Shown: piece after piece, positions 53,013 through 63,049 of the stretch | Layout of the letters: each line of letters begins with the position of its first letter | Numbering within the stretch: the first letter of the stretch is position 1 | Source: Methylobacterium sp. CB376 | GTDB lineage: Bacteria; Pseudomonadota; Alphaproteobacteria; Rhizobiales; Beijerinckiaceae | Assembly: GCF_029714205.1 (NCBI RefSeq) | Contig: NZ_CP121648.1 | Span: 4,167,001 to 4,231,000, forward strand | Direction: 5' to 3' | Length of the DNA stretch: 64,000 nucleotides | Position numbers and translations under genes: made by a program | Notes under the pieces: model-generated | What the model was told of the DNA's origin: nothing | What the model saw: the letters and a program-made list of their open reading frames with translations, nothing else | The model's database searches: none

Positions 53013-55136
53013 TCAGGCGACCCGGGCGGAGGGGCCCTCCATCTCCACCAGCCGGCCGCCCTCGACCTTGAGCACCCGGCCGACGAAGGGCAGGAGGTGC
53101 GGGCTGTGGGTCACGAAGACCTTGGCGGCGGGCACGCGGACCAGGGCCTGGACCAGCTTCGCCTCCGAGACCGGGTCGAGATTGGCCGTGACCTCGTCGA
53201 GCAGCAGCAGGCGCGGACGGCGGCAGAGGGCGCGGGCCAGGATCAGGCGCCGCCGCTGGCCCGTCGAGAGCAGGTTGCTCTCGTCGGAGACGAAGGTGGC
53301 GTAGCCCTGCGGCAGCGCCTCGACCTCGTCGCGCAGCCCCACCACCGAGAGGGCCGCCTCCATCTGCAGCCGCGTGATGTCGGGGGAGTACATCGCGAGG
53401 TTCTCCGCCACCGTGCCGGCGAAGAGCCGGTCGTCCGCGAAGACGCAGCCGATATTCGCCCGGTACTCGTGCAGGCCGAATTGCGCCAGGGGCCGGCCAT
53501 CCACCAGCACCTGCCCCTGGGCGGGCTCCGCGAGGCTGGCGAGCACCCGCAGCAGCGAGGACTTGCCGCAGCCCGAGGGGCCGAGGATCGCGACCGACTC
53601 GGCCGCGGCGACGTCGAGGGTGAGGTCGATCCCGTCGATGAGCGGCTTCTCGCCCCGCCCGTACTGGATCCGCACGCCCTCCAGCGCCACGCCGCGCCGG
53701 ATCGCCCGGTCGATGCTGCTGCGCTCGCTCGCCTGCTCGGGCGCCTCGTACAGGATGTCGTCGAGGCGCTCGTAATGCACCCGCATCACCGAGATCTGCA
53801 GGAGGCTCATGATCAGGGTGTTCATGGTGGTGAAGAACGACGTCCTCAGCGAGAAGAACGCGTAGAGCACGCCCACCGACAGGGTGCTCTTCATGACGTC
53901 GGTGACGCCCATGTAGAGCGTCGCGACCGTGCCGAGCATGAAGACGAGGTGCAGGGCGAAATCGGCGTCGATCGCGTAGCGGCGCGAGCGGTAGCTGGCA
54001 TTGGCGAAGCGCGAGAAGCTGTCGAGCCACTTCAGCGCGAAGAACTCGGTGGTGTTGCCGGCCTTCAGGGCGGCGATCTGCTTGAGGCCGTCGAGGAGGC
54101 GCATCTGCTCCTCGGAGCGCGCCTCCAGGGTCTCGGTCGTGGTGCGGGCGATGCGCGGATAGGTGGCGAAGCGGATCGCCACCGCCATCACCAGGGTCGC
54201 CAGCGAGGCCGCGGCCATCGACGGCGAGTAATAGTACATCATGGCGATCAGCAGCACCGACATGATGCCGTCGGCCAGGGACGACACGAACCCGCTGATC
54301 AGGAAGGTCTTGATCTGGTCGATCGAGGACAGGCGGGTGATGAGGTCGCCGGGATGCCGGGCCTCGAAGAAGCCTAGCGGCAGGCGCAGGGCGTGGCCGA
54401 CGACGTTGCGGGTGAAGTGCACCTCGAACAGGGTGGCGGTGCGCAGGGTCACCACGTCGCGCAGCCAGCGCGAGGCCGCCTCGAAGCCCGAGAACAGGAT
54501 CAGCCCGACGGCGACCGCGTTCAGGAGGTCGAGGTCGAATTGCGGGATCACCGTGTCGACGGCGGCCTGCAGGAAGATGGGCGTCGCCAGGGCGAACAGC
54601 GTCGTCGCGAAGGACATCACGGCGACCATCGCGACCGTGTGCTCGACGCCCCGGCAGGAGCGGAACACCGCCCAGAAGGTCGAGGCGCGGGCCGCGCGGA
54701 TCGCCCGGAAATCGACCCGGCGGGAGAATTCGAGGGCGACGCCCGCGAAGTGGCGCTCCACGTCCTCCCGGGCGTAGATCCGCGGGCCGAAGGCCGGGTC
54801 GTGGATGTGGAACTGCCCGCGGGCGACCTTCTCCAGCACCACGAAGTGGTTGCCGTCCCAGTGGAGTATCGCCGGGCAGGCGAGCTTGCCGAGCTCGTCG
54901 ACCTGGGCGATGCCCAGGCCCTGCGCGTCGAGGCCGATCTGGCCGGCCACCTCGACGATCTCCGCGAAGCTCATGCCGCGGCGCGAGACCGGGAACAGCG
55001 AGCGCAGGTAGGGCAGGTCGATGTCGTGCCGGTGGGCATTCGCCACCATGGCGAGGCAGGCCAGCCCGCACTCCATGGTCTCGGCCTGGAGCACGGTGCG
55101 GACCCGGCGGATCCGCTCCCCGACGCGACGGCTCAT
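53013..55136 (-). CDS. Peptidase-containing ABC exporter (C39 bacteriocin-processing type)
   Basis: A 707-residue exporter. The N-terminal C39 peptidase has catalytic Cys23 in AETMECGLACLAM, oxyanion Gln17, His in WDGNHFVVLEK and Asp in HIHDPAFG, so it should be active. A six-helix membrane domain follows (about 160-430), then the ATPase: Walker A GPSGCGKSSLL, signature LLSTGQRRRLILAR (STGQ in place of SGGQ), Walker B RLLLLDEVTANLD, switch FVTHSPH. Such proteins cut double-glycine leaders and export the cores. It overlaps the HlyD gene by one base. Its expected substrates are encoded at 57457-57761 and perhaps 62810. Confidence 0.92.
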   Translation of the reverse strand: MSRRVGERIRRVRTVLQAETMECGLACLAMVANAHRHDIDLPYLRSLFPVSRRGMSFAEIVEVAGQIGLDAQGLGIAQVDELGKLACPAILHWDGNHFVVLEKVARGQFHIHDPAFGPRIYAREDVERHFAGVALEFSRRVDFRAIRAARASTFWAVFRSCRGVEHTVAMVAVMSFATTLFALATPIFLQAAVDTVIPQFDLDLLNAVAVGLILFSGFEAASRWLRDVVTLRTATLFEVHFTRNVVGHALRLPLGFFEARHPGDLITRLSSIDQIKTFLISGFVSSLADGIMSVLLIAMMYYYSPSMAAASLATLVMAVAIRFATYPRIARTTTETLEARSEEQMRLLDGLKQIAALKAGNTTEFFALKWLDSFSRFANASYRSRRYAIDADFALHLVFMLGTVATLYMGVTDVMKSTLSVGVLYAFFSLRTSFFTTMNTLIMSLLQISVMRVHYERLDDILYEAPEQASERSSIDRAIRRGVALEGVRIQYGRGEKPLIDGIDLTLDVAAAESVAILGPSGCGKSSLLRVLASLAEPAQGQVLVDGRPLAQFGLHEYRANIGCVFADDRLFAGTVAENLAMYSPDITRLQMEAALSVVGLRDEVEALPQGYATFVSDESNLLSTGQRRRLILARALCRRPRLLLLDEVTANLDPVSEAKLVQALVRVPAAKVFVTHSPHLLPFVGRVLKVEGGRLVEMEGPSARVA

Positions 55137-56443
55137 CAGCGCCCCCTCAAGGCACGGATCGGATCGGTGGCCCAGTCGATCAGGCGCCGCCGCTCGACGA
55201 CGATGTCGACCGACAGGGTCGCGCCGATCTTCAGCGGCACCTTCTCGCCGTAGGCGTCGACATCCGCCCGGTCGGGGCGGATCTCGATCCGGTAGGCGGA
55301 TTGCATCGGCACCGGCCGCGGATCGAGCCCGGCCTCGGGCGGCAGCCCCTCGGTGACCGGCGCCCGCACGGCCGCCTCCGAGATGTACGTGATGGTGCCG
55401 TGATGGATGCCGAAGGTCTTGTACGGGAAGGCGTCGTATTTCAGGATCACCCGCTGCCCGACCTTGGCGAGGCCGACCGCGCGGGAGGGCGCCTCGACCA
55501 CGATCAGGGGCGCGGCGGCCGGGTCGCCGATCGCGGCGACGAGCTGCCCGGACCTGACCGAATCGCCGACCTTCGCCCCGAGGGCGAGCACCGTCCCGGC
55601 GCTGGGAGCCTGGATCTCCAGGGCCGATTCGGTCCGCAGGGCGGCGATCCGGCTGTCGATGCTCTCGATCTGGCTGCGGGCGGCGGCCTTCTGGCTCTGC
55701 TTGGTGGCCACCAGGGTCTCGTAGGCGCGGCGGCGCTCCGTGTCCTGGCGCTGGTATTCGAGGCGCCGGAGCTCGATCTCGGCGAGCTGCCGCTCGTAAT
55801 CGTAGGTCGTCCGCTCGCGCGCCTCGAGGACGTCGCGGGTGGCGTAGCCCTCCTTCACGTAGGCGGAGACCCGGCGCACGATGGCGCGGCTCTTGTCGGC
55901 GGCGGCGGCGACCTGGCGGGACTGGGCGTCGAGGCCGGCGTAGAAGCGGGACTGATCCGATTCGATCGCCTTCTGCTGGCGCGTCGCCTGGGCGATGAAG
56001 GCCTCCGCGGCCGCCGCCTCGGCCTCCTGGGTCCGGCGCGTCTGGAGCAGGTTGCGGATCTCGGCCTCCGCCACCGATTCCCCGCCCGCGGTCGCGGCGC
56101 CGAGGCGCAGGGCGTAGACCGGGCTGCCGGCCGCGACCCGGTCGCCCTGCGTCACGGCGAGGCGGCTGACCACGCCGGCGCGCGGCGCGTCGAGGCGCAC
56201 GAAGCCGCCGGTCGCCGCGACCACGCCGCGCACGCTCTCGGTCTGGGCGAAGCGCCCGAACCAGAGGCCGCCGAGGGTGGCGCAGACCGTGGCGCCGACG
56301 AGGAGCGTGGCGAACAGCGTGGTCCGGTTCTGCCGCAGGTCGATCGTCTCGGCGAGCAGCGGCGCGGCGGGCCGCGGGGGCGGGGCGGCCTCGGCCGGCT
56401 CCTCCTCCTCCGGCGCCGCGGCGGGCAGGGGGGCGGCACTCAC
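55136..56443 (-). CDS. HlyD-family membrane fusion protein
   Basis: A 435-residue periplasmic adaptor: a Pro/Glu-rich cytoplasmic tail, one transmembrane helix (TTLFATLLVGATVCATLGGLW), a lipoyl half (VVAATGGFVRLDAPRAGVV), a long coiled coil (about 130-270, Gln/Glu/Arg/Ala rich), the second lipoyl half (IQAPSAGTVLALGAKVGDSV) and a C-terminal beta domain. It links the C39 ABC exporter to a TolC-type channel. The GTG start overlaps the stop of the acyltransferase gene (GTGA). Confidence 0.9.
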   Translation of the reverse strand: MSAAPLPAAAPEEEEPAEAAPPPRPAAPLLAETIDLRQNRTTLFATLLVGATVCATLGGLWFGRFAQTESVRGVVAATGGFVRLDAPRAGVVSRLAVTQGDRVAAGSPVYALRLGAATAGGESVAEAEIRNLLQTRRTQEAEAAAAEAFIAQATRQQKAIESDQSRFYAGLDAQSRQVAAAADKSRAIVRRVSAYVKEGYATRDVLEARERTTYDYERQLAEIELRRLEYQRQDTERRRAYETLVATKQSQKAAARSQIESIDSRIAALRTESALEIQAPSAGTVLALGAKVGDSVRSGQLVAAIGDPAAAPLIVVEAPSRAVGLAKVGQRVILKYDAFPYKTFGIHHGTITYISEAAVRAPVTEGLPPEAGLDPRPVPMQSAYRIEIRPDRADVDAYGEKVPLKIGATLSVDIVVERRRLIDWATDPIRALRGR

Positions 56444-57337
56444 GCGGCTCTCTCCTGCGCCGCCTCGGGCGCGGCCAGGAACTCGCCGAGCCGCTGCCAC
56501 ATGAACCACTGCTCGGGCGCCGCCAGCACCGATGCCTCGATGTGGCGGCGCACGAGGTCGGTGACGCGGGCCTTGGCCTCCGGCCCGGACTCGGCCACCT
56601 CGAAGGGCCGGCCCGGCGCCACCACGTCCCCGTCGAGGCGGGAGCGCACCGCCAGCGGCACCACCGTCGCCTCGGTCAGCCGGGCGAGCGCGTCGAGCCC
56701 CATGGCGAGGCGCGCCGGCCGGCCGAACAGCGTCGTGTCGACCGGGCCGCCGTAGCTCGCCGGCAGGTCCACGAAGGACACGATCACCGCCCCGGCCCGG
56801 GCGAAGCGCACGGCGTCGATGTAGTCCTGCTTGTCGCGCACGTTGAGGAAGCGCATGTCGGTGCCGATCTCCGAGATGCGGCGCATCACCCGGGTCTCGT
56901 TCTCGCGATCCTCGCGCGCGCAGGATCAGCATGCGCCGCCCCGGGAAGACGTCGTGCACGAGGCGCGCGAAGGGCAGGGCGAAGCTGCCCATGTGCAGCG
57001 GCGCCAGGATGACCGGCCGGGCGCCCGCCGCCACGCGCTCGAGCATCCCGCGCTCCAGGATGGTGACGTGGGCGGCGTCGGCCACCAGGGCCTCGCGCGA
57101 CCGTGAGAGGATTGCGAGCCATTCGAGGCTGGTCATGCGGTCGGCGAAGACCGCCTCCCGGTCGAGGCGGCGCGCCTCGCGGGCCGGAACCCGCAGGGTG
57201 CGGGCCAGCGCCTCCGCGATCCCGAGCGTCCCGGCCCGGCCCCGCAGCACGGCGAGGCGCCAGCTCGCCCGCACCGCGCGGCGCCGCGCGCGCAGCGGCA
57301 GGCGGGCCGCGAACAGCTCGGTGCGGGTGGGCGTCAT
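56440..57337 (-). pseudogene. LpxL/HtrB-like acyltransferase, frameshifted
   Basis: Two frames together give about 298 residues of a lysophospholipid/lipid A acyltransferase-like protein. The first frame runs from MTPTRTELFAARLPLRARRR to FPGRRMLILRAR, the second from EDRENETRVMRR to the stop. The break lies in a CG dinucleotide tract (56912-56921; two bases lost or one gained). The catalytic block reads ILAPLHMGSFALPF: the histidine is there, but the usual H-x4-D/E acid is absent. FVDLPASYGGPVDTTLFGRPA fits the acceptor/acyl site. It may acylate the nearby peptides or a lipid. Frame break could be real or an error. Confidence 0.75.
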
Positions 57338-57456
57338 CGCGATGGGGGCCTGTCCTGCGGTCCGTCTCGGAAGGGCGCGGACCCGCGCCGGCGGGGCCGG
57401 AGGCGGGATCTGCCGGCCGCCGCGACGGGCAGGGCCGGCCGTCGGCTGCGCTCAGA

Positions 57457-57576
57457 TCACGAGCACTTGCTGTTGCCGCAATCCTTCTTGCAGTCGTTCT
57501 TCGGCGGGGGGCACGGGGCGGGGGTGTCGCAGCCGCCGGAAATCGTCTTCAGGGCGGCGAGGTCGAGCGTCTTCAC
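57457..57576 (-). CDS. Cys-rich double-glycine peptide, copy A
   Basis: A 39-residue peptide from GTG 57576 with GGAGA seven bases upstream. The leader VKTLDLAALKTISGG has the double-glycine pattern (L-12, L-7, I-4, G-2, G-1) recognised by C39 peptidases. The 24-residue core CDTPAPCPPPKNDCKKDCGN continues SKCS and has five cysteines. It is 185 bp from its paralogue, and the last 16 residues are nearly identical. It lies upstream of the acyltransferase-HlyD-C39 ABC genes on the same strand. Too short for usual gene callers. Confidence 0.8.
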   Translation of the reverse strand: MKTLDLAALKTISGGCDTPAPCPPPKNDCKKDCGNSKCS

Positions 57577-57607
57577 GGTGATGTCTCCGGTCGGAATCGG
57601 ACGAGGT

Positions 57608-57627
57608 ACCCCGCCCTGAGGCGGGGT
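57608..57627 (-). other. Hairpin between the twin Cys-rich peptide genes
   Basis: ACCCCGCC-CTGA-GGCGGGGT is a perfect 8-bp stem with a tetraloop, lying after the copy B stop and before the copy A start. There is no T tract. It may protect or process the transcript so the first peptide is made in excess; inferred. Confidence 0.5.
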
Positions 57628-57641
57628 GGGGCGCGCTCAGA

Positions 57642-57761
57642 TCACGAGCACTTGCTGTTGCCGCAATCCTTCTTGCAGTCGTTCGCCGGCGGGGGGCACG
57701 GGGCCGGGGCGCAGGTGCCGCCGGAGATCGCCTTCAGGGCCGCGAGGTCGAGCTTCGTCAT
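57642..57761 (-). CDS. Cys-rich double-glycine peptide, copy B
   Basis: A 39-residue peptide from ATG 57761 with AGGAGAG upstream. Leader MTKLDLAALKAISGG, core TCAPAPCPPPANDCKKDCGN then SKCS; five cysteines, with the first shifted by one residue relative to copy A. About 43 bases at the 3' end are identical to copy A, so the pair arose by recent tandem duplication. It is first in the minus-strand transcription unit leading to the exporter. Odd cysteine number means one is free for lipidation, dimerisation or metal binding; that is inference. Confidence 0.82.
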   Translation of the reverse strand: MTKLDLAALKAISGGTCAPAPCPPPANDCKKDCGNSKCS

Positions 57762-58008
57762 GATGATCTCTCCTGTCAGGGGAGACGGGGCGCCGCCCCG
57801 CCGCACGGTCTCTGTCGACCGCCGCCCGTTTCCACCACGTCACCTGACAGCATTCAAGCGCGGAAAACTACCGACTCCGCTCGTCGGAGCCGTCATTTCC
57901 TGTCCGTCGTTTACCATTGGGCGCGAAACCCGTTACTTTCGCGTTAATGAACTTGCCCAAGGCGCCGCCTCATTGAGAATGCCGGTCACGACATCTGAGA
58001 GACCGGCC
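57762..58008. promoter_or_regulatory. Divergent regulatory region between peptide and acyl-carrier genes
   Basis: The 247-bp gap has lower GC than its flanks and drives both directions. An 8-bp inverted pair CTGTCAGG (57773-57780) and CCTGACAG (57843-57850) and a small hairpin CTCCG-CTCGT-CGGAG lie within it. No consensus sigma-70 promoter is clear. Confidence 0.5.
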
Positions 58009-58302
58009 ATGCAGACCATTCCTTCCGCTTCGGCATACTCCACCGGAGATATCGAGCGCATCCTGCTCGAGATCGTCCGCAAGCAGGCCCGCAACGAGGG
58101 GGCCGATTGGTCCCTGACCACCACGATGGAGGAGGCGCAGATCGATTCCTTCGATCTCGTCGAACTCGTCTTCGAGGTGGAGGACCGCTTCGGCGTCGAG
58201 GTCAGCTTCAACGCCAACGAGCGGCCGATCGGCGAGATGACCTTCGGGGACGTGATCGCGCTGATCCGCGGCGCGCTGGCCTCGAAGGAGAAGGCGGCGT
58301 GA
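58009..58302 (+). CDS. Acyl carrier protein
   Basis: A 97-residue phosphopantetheine carrier. The attachment serine is in EAQIDSFDLVELVFEVEDRF (DSF in place of DSL), about residue 45. The C-terminal NANERPIGEMTFGDVIALI resembles specialised carriers such as NodF more than housekeeping AcpP. The start ATG is the first good one after the divergent promoter. The TGA overlaps the ketosynthase GTG, so carrier and synthase are coupled. Confidence 0.85.
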   Translation: MQTIPSASAYSTGDIERILLEIVRKQARNEGADWSLTTTMEEAQIDSFDLVELVFEVEDRFGVEVSFNANERPIGEMTFGDVIALIRGALASKEKAA

Positions 58303-59491
58303 CCCGGGTCGTCGTGTCGGGGCTCGGGGTGGCCGCGCCCGGCGGCCTCGACCCCGAGAGCTTCTGGGCGAGCCTGGTCTCGCCCGGGAGCTGCTTCACG
58401 CCGGCGCGCGAATATCCCGAGGGCGACATCCCGGTCGGACAGATCGACGCCGCGATCGACTTCGCGGACCTCCCGGTCCCCAACCCGGGCGCCTGCGACC
58501 GGGCCGCCCTCCTGGCGGTGGCGGCGACCCGCTCGGCCCTCGCGGATGCCGGCCTCGGCGAGGGCGCGGTCGATCGCGGGCGGGTGGCGGTCGTCCTCGG
58601 CAACGGCGGCGGGGGCTGATGAGCCTCGACGAGCAGTACCGGCGCGTCTTCGTGGACGGCAAGCGCCCGCACCCGTTCTCGGTGGTGCGCGCCATGACGA
58701 GCTCCTCGGCGAGCTGGGTCTCCCTGGCCTTCGGCCTCAGGGGGCCGTGCTTCGTCACCGCGAGCGCCTGCGCCTCGGCCAGCCACGCCCTCGGCATGGG
58801 GCTCCTGCTGCTGCGCGCCGGCCTCGCGGACGTGGTGGTGGCGGGCGGCACCGAGGCGCCGCTCTCCTACGGCACCCTGCGGGCCTGGGAGGCGATGAAG
58901 ATCCTGAGCCGCACCGGCTGCCGCCCCTTCGCCCGCGACCGGGACGGCCTGGTCCTGGCGGAGAGCGCCGGGATCCTGGTGCTGGAGCGCGAGGCCCACG
59001 CGCGCGCGCGGGGCGCGCGGCCGCGGGCCGTCCTCGCGGGCTTCGCGGCGAATGCCGATGCGGGCGACATCGTCGCGCCGAGCGCCGCCGGCATGGCGCA
59101 GGCGATGCGGGAGGCCCTGGCGGATGCGGGGCTCGCGCCCGCGGACGTCGCCTACGTCAACGCCCACGGCACCGGCACCCGCAGCAACGACCGCACCGAG
59201 ATCGAGGCGATGCGGGCGGTGTTCGGCCGCGACCGCATCCCGCCGACCTCCTCCACGAAGGGCGCGACCGGCCACGCGCTAGGGGCGGCGGGCGCGATCG
59301 AGGCGGTGGCGACGGTGCTGGCGATGGGGCGCGGCGTGGCGCCGCCGACCAAGACCCTGACCGAGCCGGACCCGGACCTCGCCTTCGACGCGATCCCGCG
59401 CGCGGCCCGCCCGATGCCGATCCCGGCGGCGCTCTCGAACTCCTTCGCCTTCGGGGGACTCAATGCCAGCCTCGTCTTCCGCGCCGCGTGA
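58299..59491 (+). pseudogene. Beta-ketoacyl-ACP synthase (FabF/NodE-like), single frameshift
   Basis: Two frames make one complete condensing enzyme of about 398 residues. Frame 1: TRVVVSGLGVAAPGGLDPES to VVLGNGGGG; frame 2 from MSLDEQYRRVFVDGKRPHP. One G is missing in the G5 run at 58611-58615. The catalytic triad is intact: Cys in VTASACASASH, His in VNAHGTGTRSND, His in GATGHALGAAG. It should elongate acyl chains on the adjacent carrier protein. Frame 2 alone would lack the N-terminal lobe. Confidence 0.82.
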
Positions 59492-59972
59492 GCCGCCCGC
59501 CGGGCCGGGGGACGCCGCCTCGCTCGTCGACGCCCTGCGGGCGCGCATCGGCACGATCGTCGCGGTCTCCCCCTGGACCGCCATCGACCAGGGCCGCATC
59601 GACGCCTTCGCGGCGGCCACCGACGATCACCAGTTCATCCACGTCGACCCCGTCCGGGCCGCCGCGGAGGGCCCGTTCGGCGGGACGGTGGCGCACGGCT
59701 ACCTCACCCTGGCGCTCGCCGGCGCCCTCGCCGCCAAGGCCCTGCCCCCGCACCCGGCCGTGCGCGCGGTGGTCAATATGGGGGCGGATCAGGTGCGGCT
59801 CCTCGCGCCGGTCCCGGCCGGGAGCCTGCTGCGGGGCAGCTACGAACTCGCGCGGGTCGCCGCGCTGCCGGACGGCCGCGCGGCCCTGCGCCTGCGCGCC
59901 ACCCTGGAGGCGCAGGGCCGCGCGCGTCCGGTGCTCACCGCCGAGTTGTCGCTCCTGCTCGTCCTCGCCTGA
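59463..59972 (+). CDS. MaoC/NodN-like hot-dog dehydratase
   Basis: A 169-residue hot-dog protein with the hydratase motif FAAATDDHQFIHVDPVRA and GPFGGTVAHGYLTLALAG, where Asp/His are catalytic. Family members hydrate or dehydrate beta-hydroxyacyl-CoA/ACP. It overlaps the ketosynthase 3' end by 29 bp, and with carrier and ketosynthase could supply condensation and dehydration; no ketoreductase is seen, so that step must come from the housekeeping FabG. Confidence 0.85.
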   Translation: MPASSSAPREPPAGPGDAASLVDALRARIGTIVAVSPWTAIDQGRIDAFAAATDDHQFIHVDPVRAAAEGPFGGTVAHGYLTLALAGALAAKALPPHPAVRAVVNMGADQVRLLAPVPAGSLLRGSYELARVAALPDGRAALRLRATLEAQGRARPVLTAELSLLLVLA

Positions 59973-60022
59973 GCCCGCCGCGGGGCCGCGTCCTCTGCCC
60001 GGCCCGCCCCGGAATCTGGGGT

Positions 60023-60037
60023 TTAAGACGGTCTTAA
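60023..60037. promoter_or_regulatory. Palindromic candidate operator upstream of the TolC-like gene
   Basis: TTAAGACGGTCTTAA is a perfect 7-1-7 palindrome of AT-rich bases in GC-rich DNA, 90 bp upstream of the ATG. It resembles a dimeric regulator site; the regulator is unknown. Confidence 0.5.
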
Positions 60038-60127
60038 GCATGATTTGCGCAAGGTCTTGGGCGCCGACCCTCGGTCATCCCGTTCCGGGGATTGTCCGCG
60101 CGTCGGCCCTCTGCTGCGGAAGGCCGG

Positions 60128-61629
60128 ATGTCGCGACGCCCCATCCCGTTCGAGCGATGCGCCGTCCTCGCCCTCGCCGCGGCGCTCGCCGGCGGGTCGG
60201 CGGGACCGGGCGCGGCCCAGAGCCTCGACGCCGCCGGGGCAGCGGCCCTCGACCAGAGCCCGGCCCTGAAGGCGGACCGCGCGCGCCAGGAGGGGGCCGA
60301 GGCGCGCCGGCGCGGCGCCCTCGACGCCTTCATGCCGAGCATCAGCTTCTCGGCCGACAGGCCCCTCGACAGCAAGTACAGCTACTCGCCCAACGCGGCG
60401 CCGACGCAGATCGGCATCGATTCGACGCCCCGCAGCGCGCCGACGCAGCTCGGCCTCAAGCTCGACCTGCCGCTCTTCGACGGGTTCAAGCGCTGGCACA
60501 CGCTCGAATCGACGACGGGCCTGGCGGAGGCCGGGCGCTTCGTCAGCCAGGGCAAGCGCCAGCAGGTGCTGCTCGACACCGGCGTCGCCTACCTCGCGGT
60601 GCTGCGCGACGCGCGGAGCCTCGCCTACCGGGACGCGCAGGTCGCCGCCGTCGCCCGCATCCGCCAGCAGGCCGAGCGGCAGTTCGAGGTCCGCGACGCG
60701 ACCCAGACCGATGTGGCGCTCGCGCGCTCGCGCGAGGACGCGGCGCAGGCGCAGCGCGACCGGGCCCGGGCAGACCTCGCCGCCTCGCGGCTCGAATTCC
60801 GCCGCCTCACCGGCATGGAGCCCGAGCGGATGGCGCAGCCGCGCCTGCCCGCGAACCTTCCGGCGAGCGCCGACGCCTATGCGGCGCTGGTGCAGCGGGC
60901 CAATCCCAACCTCGCGGCCTCCCGCCTCGATGCCGGCGCGGCCCGCGCCCAGGCCAGGGCCGCGCGGGCCGAGCTGCTGCCCCAGGTCAACCTGCAATTC
61001 TCCCGCTCGGCAGTGCTCAACTACAGCCAGGCGCTCGACCAGATCAACGACACCACGACGCGCCTCGTCGCCAAGCTGCCGCTCTACGAGCCCGGCGCCT
61101 ATCCGCGCATCGAGGAGGCCTCGGCCCTCGCGCTGCAGCGCGCCTACGAATCCCAGGACCTTGAGCTGACGACGCTCACGGCGGCCCGCACCCTGCACGC
61201 CCGGCGCCGGGCGATCGGCGAGCAGGCCGAGCGGCTCCTGGAGCGGGTCCGGCGCCTGCGCGAGACGGTGCGGAGCTTCTCGGTCGAGCGCCGGGCGGGG
61301 TTCCGCACCGTCCTGGACGAGCTCAACCTGCGGGCGGAGCTCGCCGACGCCGAAGTCGCCGCGGCGGCGGTGGTCACGGAGCGCGACGCGCTGACGCTGC
61401 AGCTCGCCGCGGCCGCGGGGCTGCTGGGCCTGAACGGGCCGGGCCTCCGCCGCCTCGACACCCTGCCGCCGCCGCTGCCGCCCGGCCCCGTCGCCCTGCC
61501 CCCGCCCTCGCCGGGGGCGAGCCCGAGGGCCCGCCTTTCCTGCGCGGCAGCCTCGACGCGGCGGGCCTCGGGGAGGGGCCGGGGCGCGTCTCGGTCGCCG
61601 CCGCGGGGGCCGGCCCGCGCCCGTGGTGA
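60128..61629 (+). pseudogene. TolC-family outer membrane efflux protein, C-terminal frameshift
   Basis: About 500 residues: signal peptide (RCAVLALAAALAGGSAGPGAAQS), then two TolC repeats with long amphipathic helices (e.g. YLAVLRDARSLAYRDAQVAA and the later AERLLERVRRLRETVRSFSV) and RKATVLDELNLR-like FRTVLDELNLRAELADAEV. One base is missing in the G5 run 61513-61517; restoring it gives EGPPFLRGSLDAAGLGEGPG and a stop at 61629. As written, the frame runs on through the spacer into the DUF4142 gene. It probably forms the outer channel for the C39/HlyD exporter. The core barrel/helix region is intact either way. Confidence 0.78.
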
Positions 61630-61762
61630 GCGGCCGTCGCGCGCTCCGGTCGCACCCGACCTGGACGGCGACGCTGAAACCGGGGCCCCGGACGCGCGGT
61701 TGGGCCGGGCGCGAGTGCCGGTCCCGGCGCTCAGGCGCGCCCGCAACCGTTCGAGAGGCCCC

Positions 61763-62362
61763 ATGGACCGTCGTCTCGCGCTCACGACCCTCGCCACCCT
61801 CGTCGCCGTCCCGTCGCTGATCGGCACGGCCCTCGCGCAGAACGCGCCCAGTTCCGCGTCCCAGGCCACCGGGAATGCGGGCGCCCGCATCGGCGAGGCG
61901 GAGGCCAAGCACATCGCCGACACGCTCGCCGCCGGCTCCCTCGCCCTCGCGGCGAGCCGCCTCGCCCTCACCAAGGCGAAGGACGACGACGTCAAGGAAT
62001 TCGCCCGCTTCGAGGTCGCCGAGCAGGAGACGATCGCCGACGTCCTCAAGGCGATGCGCGACCAGGGCACGCCGGCGAGCGGCCAGGTGAAGGCCCCGGC
62101 GGAACCCGAGGTGACAGGCCAGATCGACGCCGGCGGCAAGGCGAAGCTGGAGAAGCTGGAACAGGCCAAGGCCGGCGAGGCCTTCGACCTCGAGTACATC
62201 CGCGGCCAGATCGAGGGCCACCAGGCCCTGCTCAGGATCCAGGAAGCCTACCTCGCCGGCGGCAAGGACCGCGAGAACCTCGCGGTGGCCAAGCTCGCCC
62301 GGACCCAGATCCGCGAGCACCTCACCCTGCTCGCCGACATCGAGAAGGATCTCAAGGACTGA
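61763..62362 (+). CDS. DUF4142 family periplasmic ferritin-like protein
   Basis: A 199-residue protein with a signal peptide (RRLALTTLATLVAVPSLIGTALAQ) and the four-helix DUF4142 domain (EAKHIADTLAAGSLALAASR; VKEFARFEVAEQETIADVLK; LRIQEAYLAGGKDRENLAVA). Family function is unknown; it is often stress- or envelope-related. ATG 61763 is preceded by CGAGAGG. Because of the upstream frameshift it lies in frame with the tolC open frame, so automatic annotation may fuse the two. Confidence 0.8.
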   Translation: MDRRLALTTLATLVAVPSLIGTALAQNAPSSASQATGNAGARIGEAEAKHIADTLAAGSLALAASRLALTKAKDDDVKEFARFEVAEQETIADVLKAMRDQGTPASGQVKAPAEPEVTGQIDAGGKAKLEKLEQAKAGEAFDLEYIRGQIEGHQALLRIQEAYLAGGKDRENLAVAKLARTQIREHLTLLADIEKDLKD

Positions 62363-62513
62363 TCCGACATCCGACGGATTGCGTCGCCGTCTCCCATTTC
62401 GGCAATGCGGATGGCGGCTTCGCTCACGCGCCGCGCGGGCTTGGCATACCCAATCCGCTCGATCCCTTCGGGATGGCGGATTGGGGCTTCGCTCAGGCGC
62501 CGCGCGGGCTTGG
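62363..62513 (-). repeat. Dispersed intergenic repeat, two copies, inverted relative to the 28.8-kb copies
   Basis: Read on the minus strand, the copies begin GCGCGGCGCGTGAGCGAAGC (about 62437) and GCGCGGCGCCTGAGCGAAGC (about 62507). The first keeps nearly the whole unit seen at 28788-28950, the second only its first part. The element abuts the DUF4142 stop codon on one side and a 12-bp-stem hairpin on the other. Confidence 0.8.
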
Positions 62514-62518
62514 CAGAC

Positions 62519-62546
62519 GCTGTCCGGACGTGATCGTCCGGACAGC
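62519..62546. other. Hairpin at the edge of the repeat element
   Basis: GCTGTCCGGACG-TGAT-CGTCCGGACAGC is a perfect 12-bp stem with a 4-nt loop. Its position relative to the repeat copies mirrors that of the hairpin at 28742-28780. Confidence 0.75.
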
Positions 62547-62599
62547 GCATGACGCGGGCCCCGGGCGGCCGCCGGGCGTGGCCGCCCGGCTCACCCGCC

Positions 62600-62655
62600 A
62601 AGCTTCGTGTCGGCCAAGCTTCGTGTCGGCCAAGCTTCGTGTCGGCCAAGCTTCG
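62600..62655. repeat. 16-bp tandem repeats upstream of the third double-glycine peptide
   Basis: Three identical units of AAGCTTCGTGTCGGCC and a partial fourth, about 155 bp upstream of the peptide start. The remainder of the 447-bp gap (62656-62809) shows no gene and should contain the peptide promoter. Confidence 0.85.
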
Positions 62656-62809
62656 GCCCGGGCCGGGACTGGTTCGCGTGCACCGGCCGAATCGGGCAAT
62701 CCGATCGCGCACTGTCGATCCCGTGCCGGACCGCACGGCGGCTCGGGCTCCGGGGCGCGATGGTCTCCCCATCGAAGCGGCGCCGCGCCGGAACGAGCGG
62801 GAGAGAAGG

Positions 62810-63049
62810 ATGAGCGTCTTCACGGCAACCCTCGCCACGGAGCTCGCGGGCGAGGCGCGGGACCGGGAACTCGGCGACGAGAGCCTGGACGAGGTCAGCG
62901 GCGGCGCCCCGTTCCCGATCCGGCCCACGGCGCCGCTGCCCCCCGTCGTGGCGACGCACGACGGCAAGGGCTGGCATTTCAGCGGCGGCCTCTCCTGGCC
63001 GAGCGCGCCCGCGCCGCAGGTCCCGGCTCGCCCCGTCCCGGGCTGGTGA
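62810..63049 (+). CDS. Double-glycine leader peptide, Pro/Trp-rich core
   Basis: A 79-residue precursor from ATG 62810 with GAGAGAAGG upstream. The leader ends ELGDESLDEVSGG and has L-12, L-7, V-4, G-2 and G-1, a textbook double-glycine site with the usual acidic stretch. The 47-residue core has no cysteine and is rich in Pro and Trp (PFPIRPTAPLPPVV, GWHFSGGLSWP, PARPVPGW). It is likely another substrate of the C39 exporter encoded 8 kb away; a separate exporter elsewhere is possible. Confidence 0.75.
   Translation: MSVFTATLATELAGEARDRELGDESLDEVSGGAPFPIRPTAPLPPVVATHDGKGWHFSGGLSWPSAPAPQVPARPVPGW

Follow-up and report, generated by a model that had tools for sequence, protein, structure and literature searches.

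RTX toxins are acylated on lysine by HlyC, in a reaction that depends on acyl-acyl carrier protein (acyl-ACP), before they are exported through an ABC-HlyD-TolC channel; to our knowledge, the enzyme-encoded acylation of exported peptides and proteins proceeds either by this HlyC route or by GNAT-type enzymes. Acyl-ACP is also the substrate of LpxL enzymes, and the rhizobial NodFE proteins make unsaturated chains. According to PMC9542644, NodF serves polyunsaturated chains on Nod factors. For the Cdz system of Caulobacter, PMC5380434 describes the immunity protein CdzI together with two toxins of the glycine-zipper type, and the word "acyltransferase" does not occur in its main text. Here we analyze a locus in a 64,000-nucleotide stretch of the Methylobacterium sp. 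CB376 genome (G000:C1:4167001-4231000, hereinafter the window; the genome comprises 7.69 Mb in 2 contigs) that encodes double-glycine (GG) leader peptides, a C39 exporter, an acyltransferase with a predicted LpxL/PatA fold (hereinafter Lpx) and a NodF/NodE/NodN-like set of acyl chain genes. We propose, with a probability of about 0.5, that the locus exports ribosomal peptides by a type I system and includes a peptide-acylation step of its own, in which Lpx would acylate the C-terminal tail of the precursor before cleavage and export.

Genomic association of the acyltransferase with the exporter

The genes of the locus are as follows (ACP, acyl carrier protein).

53013..55136, minus strand: C39 peptidase/ABC exporter, 707 amino acids (PF03412, E 1.2e-32, 113 bits; PF00664, ABC_membrane; PF00005, ABC_tran)
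55136..56443, minus strand: HlyD periplasmic adaptor, GTG start (PF13437, PF16576)
56440..57337, minus strand: Lpx, the LpxL/PatA-fold acyltransferase, a PF03279 homologue frameshifted in the window (N-terminal part ~56905-57337, C-terminal part 56440-~56913)
57457..57576, minus strand: GG-leader precursor 2, GTG start
57642..57761, minus strand: GG-leader precursor 1, MTKLDLAALKAISGG/TCAPAPCPPPANDCKKDCGNSKCS
58009..58302, plus strand: ACP with a DSF phosphopantetheine site (PF00550, E 1.3e-5)
58299..59491, plus strand: NodE/FabF-like ketosynthase (KS), frameshifted near 58616 (PF00109, PF02801)
59463..59972, plus strand: MaoC-type dehydratase (PF01575, E 7.8e-20)
60128..61664, plus strand: TolC outer-membrane channel, frame change near 61499, end approximate (PF02321, E 1.1e-37)

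The exporter, Lpx, peptide and acyl chain genes span 53013-59972, with TolC beyond them, and the acyl genes are divergent from the exporter and peptide genes. Family matches and the sequence itself bear out the layout drawn in the first-pass annotation, namely two GG peptides, an acyltransferase, HlyD and a C39-ABC protein on the minus strand; Pfam matches do the same for the ACP, KS, MaoC and TolC on the plus strand, the KS and the end of TolC being frameshifted. The Cys, His and Asp that we take to be the peptidase residues of the C39 domain are visible in the exporter sequence, and the HlyD protein scores 99.6 bits against TIGR01843, under the cut-off of 208.65.

We searched for the exporter in 149 relatives, of which 67 (the window genome counted) matched at E 1e-60; the best identities were 72-74% in 3 genomes, 56-57% in 13 and 48% in one, with the rest under 39%. 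A profile of Lpx built from 17 loci and run over the 149 genomes at E 1e-25 matched 18 of them, that is, the window genome and the 17 genomes that supplied the profile. Thus, Lpx is present in 18 of the 18 genomes with an exporter of at least 48% identity and in none of the 131 others (Fisher p 1e-23, kinship ignored), and, given that 17 of the 18 positive genomes supplied profile sequences, the informative part of this comparison is the absence of Lpx elsewhere. In the 17 fetched loci, Lpx adjoins the HlyD and ABC genes; HlyD is found in all 17, and TolC lies inside the fetched stretch in 15. All 14 fetched loci with exporters of 33-38% identity contain HlyD and none has an Lpx match, and the 7 fetched loci whose exporters are even less similar likewise show no Lpx match. 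The trees of Lpx and of the ABC protein recover largely the same groups; the group of the window is well supported in the ABC tree and unresolved in the Lpx tree. The co-occurrence in 18 of 18 genomes supports Lpx as a steady partner of the exporter. The stop of lpx and the start of hlyD share 4 nucleotides, and from this overlap it had been concluded that acyl transfer and export are coupled: the overlap is real and is insufficient on its own, and it is the comparative data that support the coupling.

Scanning genome contigs yielded 21 loci, 20 of them titled Methylobacterium or Methylorubrum and one titled Rhizobiales bacterium. A class-wide search of 385 genomes for Lpx (E 1e-30) matched only the genome of the window itself; one of 15 genomes was positive in a search of the family around G295, and 4 of 397 in an order-level search (E 1e-40). 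After a permissive initial pass, searches of this kind score no more than a handful of candidates in each genome (5 in the order-level and class-wide searches, 15 in the search of the 149 genomes for Lpx), so that a miss does not prove absence. Because only 4 of the 397 genomes in the order-level search were positive, the system looks rare outside the genus. In genome G060, a gene that we take to be aminotransferase-like (L050:13652-15100) is located between the precursor and Lpx.

With regard to family membership, all six full-length Lpx relatives that were scanned match PF03279 at 25.2-39.1 bits (curated cut-off, 22.3); for the split protein of the window, the C-terminal part scores 27.8 bits and the N-terminal part has no match. 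The Lpx of Methylobacterium sp. WSM2598 (locus L077) scores 15.3 bits against TIGR02207, the NCBIfam model of LpxL/LpxP, below its cut-off of 297.8. The window genome encodes one other PF03279 protein, a canonical LpxL (138 bits, C1:5316534), in a stretch (G000:C1 ~5310780-5317470) that also contains an AcpXL-like ACP, a FabZ-like open reading frame (ORF; this and the ACP were named by eye) and a KS. This acpXL-lpxXL set for lipid A is 1.1 Mb from the window cluster, in the same genome. Because a separate PF03279 protein stands in an acpXL-type stretch, the Lpx of the window is an extra member of the family, and the ACP and KS of the window are not the lipid A set. The lipid A module is thus ruled out as a reading of the locus; of the two relatives named as the nearest known logic in the first-pass annotation, rhizobial acpXL-lpxXL and NodFE, the first falls with it, and the second is upheld by the NodE-like names of the KS relatives. 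An aryl-polyene-type cluster was also considered and was set aside, the window cluster having a single KS.

Precursor peptides

A search with the leader pattern identified 47 precursors in 23 of the 24 loci scanned, a count that leaves out one further L036 copy with an already counted core; in L048, the one locus without a scored precursor, the peptide is broken by a run of N. The leader follows the consensus M[K/T]xLDLxxLxxV[S/T/A]GG, in which only M1, G14 and G15 are invariant in a 24-row alignment. The precursors comprise 39 unique cores of 20-43 residues that are hypervariable and can be Cys/Pro-rich, His/Asp/Gly-rich, Asn/Gly-rich or Gly/Leu-rich. The peptides had been described as Cys-rich, and this signature does not survive the comparison: 10 of the 39 unique cores contain no Cys, and what stays constant is a C-terminal tail rich in Lys. 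Every one of the 39 has Lys within its last six residues, and Lys occupies 90 of the 234 tail positions compared with 44 of 911 elsewhere.

The terminal residue is Cys in 21 cores, Ser in 16 and Arg in two. Its distribution follows lineage: Ser terminates all 10 unique cores from loci where ACP-KS belongs to the cluster or adjoins it; loci whose ACP-KS pair is unlinked have six cores with terminal Ser and one with terminal Cys; where the full module is unlinked, five end in Cys; and in the remaining loci, a class that includes L080, L083 and L088 from genomes outside the KS search, 15 end in Cys and two in Arg.

A wider homologue search returned 38 precursor-like proteins, of which 12 have cores already counted and two could not be split by the pattern; 23 of the 24 further cores carry Lys among their six final residues, and the remaining one resembles a copy with a frameshift, but the profile used already included the Lys tail, and this is not an independent test. 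Where the sources name these homologues, they are "hypothetical", "uncharacterized" or carry a bacteriocin-leader name, and Pfam returned for the precursors only ComC, Bacteriocin_IIc and RamS, all weak and under cut-off.

As controls, we used 15 hand-picked peptides of Lpx-less exporters (GG- or GA-type ORFs in L053, which are Lys-rich, and in L059 and L071 were left out, and other ORFs looked like chance occurrences): their leader differs, they contain no Cys, none of them ends in Ser or Cys, and the tail never has two Lys. Lpx-less exporters of 33-38% identity (L051, L052, L054, L056-L058, L063, L066, L068-L070) adjoin Gly/Leu/Val-rich GG peptides that share the leader REL...ELDxVGGG and that, by eye, look like glycine-rich bacteriocins of the Cdz type.

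The acyl chain module

The KS was sought in the same 149 genomes. ACP, KS and MaoC genes are located in or beside the cluster in five of them, the window genome, G048, G080, G035 and G060 (in the last, ~5 kb away), and ACP orthologues stand next to the KS in L034, L035, L036 and L050. In addition to these five, a KS of at least 70% identity is present in G070, G072 and G028, where ACP, KS and MaoC lie together elsewhere in the genome; in G072, a single contig, the exporter and acyl loci are 1.6 Mb apart. At 59-64% identity, a KS occurs in G046 and G058, both of which have Lpx and an ACP-KS pair without a MaoC match, and in the Lpx-less G122. Accordingly, 8 of the 18 genomes with Lpx have a KS at 70% identity or above, versus none of the 131 without it, and 10 of 18 versus one of 131 have a KS at 59% or above. 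With the module in or beside the cluster in five of the 18 genomes, elsewhere in three, reduced to ACP-KS in two and no KS of at least 59% in eight, it is an optional supplier and not a core part of the system. The tie between peptides, exporter and acyl genes on which the first-pass annotation was built therefore holds fully for Lpx (18 of 18) and in part for ACP-KS-MaoC.

Gene order differs among loci, two of which lie outside the genus. In L085 (Rhizobiales bacterium AFS011520), ACP, KS, Lpx, HlyD and ABC genes follow each other on the same strand and a distant TolC comes after them, and in L100 (Methyloraptor-like G295) the order is Lpx-HlyD-ABC-ACP-KS-MaoC, again in one direction. When 91 Lpx protein clusters were compared with the best 120 KS clusters, paired by identical size of the longest contig, 12 pairs were obtained (0.13 expected by jitter), including one Methylosinus contig. 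Many relatives of the KS carry the source name "nodulation protein E", and its best NCBIfam match is FabF, under the cut-off. NodE-like KS proteins are listed from Bosea and Chelatococcus as well, and for this reason the KS family is wider than the exporter system. In G058 (L105:7207-11135), a TolC gene is located 1.2 kb from the ACP-KS pair and the exporter stretch has no TolC match; because an opposite-strand ORF intervenes, we do not count this arrangement as strong support.

Assembly state and neighboring features

The window assembly contains frame changes in Lpx, in the KS and at the C-terminus of TolC. Compared with WSM2598, to which it is 99.3% identical over 9,818 columns, 1-2 nucleotides are missing from the window at each frame change, and in WSM2598 Lpx and the KS are each in one frame; the exporter gene of the window is in one frame and differs from that of WSM2598 by 12 nucleotides, in-frame. 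Lpx is unbroken in all 17 relatives and the KS in the 4 relatives with the cluster, and the frameshifts of the window may be assembly errors or recent decay. The KS of G295 (L100:4785-5932) is likewise split over two frames, which may be a sequencing error or decay.

Two further features lie beyond TolC.

61760-62362: DUF4142 protein, downstream of TolC
62810..63049, plus strand: third GG-leader ORF, of another leader type

The DUF4142 protein is kept in WSM2598 and has no match in any of 40 loci compared. The third ORF had been counted as a peptide of the system; its leader is RDRELGDESLDEVSGG, it has no Lys tail, and it has no match in the 40 loci searched, occurring beyond the window only in WSM2598, and it probably does not belong to the system. 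This leader (LDEVSGG) resembles that of the Lpx-less family, and the core contains Pro and Trp. Between the DUF4142 gene and this ORF, a 16-bp unit (GCCAAGCTTCGTGTCG) is present in 3.7 perfect copies (62597-62655), and indels of 14 and 16 nucleotides relative to WSM2598 are located at this repeat and ~200 nucleotides upstream of it. Rfam and tRNA scans gave 0 hits, and a promoter scan of the divergent region found 0 sites.

Proposed mechanism and alternative explanations

The linkage of Lpx with the exporter is well supported. The peptide is the putative acceptor of the acyl group because the tail is constant and the linkage steady; what follows is inferred as to the acyl donor, the residue that accepts the chain, the kind of chain, retention at the surface and the role in the organism. 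The short precursors have a common leader, a core that is hypervariable and a tail rich in Lys, mostly with Ser or Cys as its last residue. Lpx, acting in the cytoplasm, would move a fatty acyl group from acyl-ACP to a Lys, Ser or Cys of the tail; in some lineages, the NodF/NodE/NodN-like ACP-KS-MaoC module would make a special, probably unsaturated, chain, and in lineages without it Lpx would draw on housekeeping acyl-ACP. Once the tail is acylated, the C39 domain would cleave after GG. The acylated core would then leave through the ABC-HlyD-TolC channel and probably remain on the cell surface or close to it. More tentatively, and with a likelihood somewhat below even, the products might form a new class of ribosomal lipopeptides, defined by a NodFEN-like unsaturated chain, an Lpx without the acid of the HX4(D/E) motif, a constant Lys-Ser/Cys tail on otherwise hypervariable peptides, and C39 maturation and secretion.

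Several observations weigh against the proposed acylation of the peptide. The genomes are related, and the Fisher values accordingly overstate independence. The Lpx of the window is itself frameshifted. Most control peptides, too, have one Lys at the end (Lys at 12 of 90 tail positions), and a tail of Lys could have a function in export or in binding to membranes. A KS of at least 59% is absent from 8 of the 18 genomes with Lpx, and L085 has no MaoC match. The acid of the HX4(D/E) motif is present in none of the 66 Lpx homologues, leaving activity uncertain, and a PDB title names Glu127 of this motif in LpxM as catalytic; if Lpx is catalytically dead, it might sit in the membrane and, as a chaperone or adaptor, hand the peptide over to the exporter. 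We do not accept that Lpx must be dead for want of this acid. In PatA, according to PMC4792965, the HX4D acid has a structural role and the D131A mutant keeps 37% activity, whereas H126A and E200A are inactive; PatA thus uses a block-3 acid, and by alignment Asp191 of Lpx is the block-3 partner of the candidate catalytic His, although the alignment with LpxXL that places it has a probability of 48%. All 66 homologues retain His115, Asp191 and four Arg, and a co-occurring acyl-making module would be purposeless beside a dead enzyme. We therefore regard a dead Lpx as highly improbable.

The main rival is that Lpx acylates an envelope lipid, for self-protection or to make the membrane permissive for export. 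It gains from the fact that the closest solved relatives of Lpx, PatA and LpxM, are glycolipid acyltransferases, from the lack of a conserved immunity-like extra gene among the matches listed (18 loci, ORFs of at least 50 amino acids), and from the conservation of Lpx while the cores vary, as expected of a general protection factor. We nevertheless consider it rather unlikely, given that the genome has its separate canonical LpxL near an AcpXL-like ACP and that a lipid acceptor leaves unexplained a Lys tail that unrelated cores retain and that is less marked in the peptides of Lpx-less exporters. It is also conceivable that Lpx acts alone with the peptide and that ACP-KS-MaoC, which would make an unrelated lipid, adjoins the exporter by chance, as the eight Lpx genomes without a KS of at least 59% and the occurrence of NodE-like KS without Lpx in G122, and also in Bosea and Chelatococcus, would allow. 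Such chance proximity seems improbable: among the 149 genomes a KS of at least 70% occurs only with Lpx, three of the eight being unlinked; the gene sets recur while their order varies among L085, L100, L050 and the window; and 12 of 62 Lpx clusters have a longest contig of exactly the size of that of a KS cluster.

Comparison with known systems

The system for which we favor peptide acylation resembles the C39 (double-glycine) secretion of class II microcins and bacteriocins in the GG leader, the C39-ABC exporter, HlyD and TolC. Unlike these, it has a steady acyltransferase partner and a Lys-rich tail and no conserved immunity gene among the matches listed for ORFs of at least 50 amino acids. 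Cdz (PMC5380434) is similar in being an alphaproteobacterial type I secretion system whose small proteins are held on the outer membrane; by eye, the Lpx-less Methylobacterium exporters with Gly/Leu-rich peptides look nearer to Cdz. The nostolysamides, fatty-acylated ribosomally synthesized and post-translationally modified peptides, share with the proposed products a cluster-encoded enzyme and a long acyl group on Lys of a ribosomal peptide; there (PMC13060382), the enzyme is a GNAT that uses acyl-CoA and modifies a position-1 Lys of a lanthipeptide, whereas here it has an LpxL/PatA fold and the target would be the tail. Neither lanthionine synthetase nor GNAT families were detected among the ten cluster proteins scanned, and the same scan found no HlyC family protein and no RTX repeats; compared with the RTX/HlyC systems, the peptides here are short and have GG leaders.

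The rhizobial NodF/NodE/NodN set is matched by the ACP, the KS (NodE-like by source names) and the MaoC-type dehydratase, the counterpart of NodN; unlike the rhizobial Nod genes, the module here stands beside a peptide exporter. In the acpXL-lpxXL cluster for lipid A, an ACP, a KS and an LpxL-family enzyme also occur together, but such a set exists separately in this genome.

We found no description of the Lpx-exporter-cassette gene set among the open-licence papers listed, covered mostly as titles and abstract openings. If the proposal is correct, no earlier case is known to us in which this glycolipid-acyltransferase fold acts on a peptide, and it would show how such an enzyme gets recruited to a new acceptor; an LpxL/PatA route with an optional chain cassette would broaden the search for lipopeptides in genomes, and the conserved tail provides a testable handle and is possibly a general acylation tag. 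Each component of the system is known; what appears new is that an LpxL/PatA-fold enzyme is combined with both a GG-peptide exporter and a NodFEN-like cassette, with a real chance that the system represents a new class of ribosomal lipopeptides.

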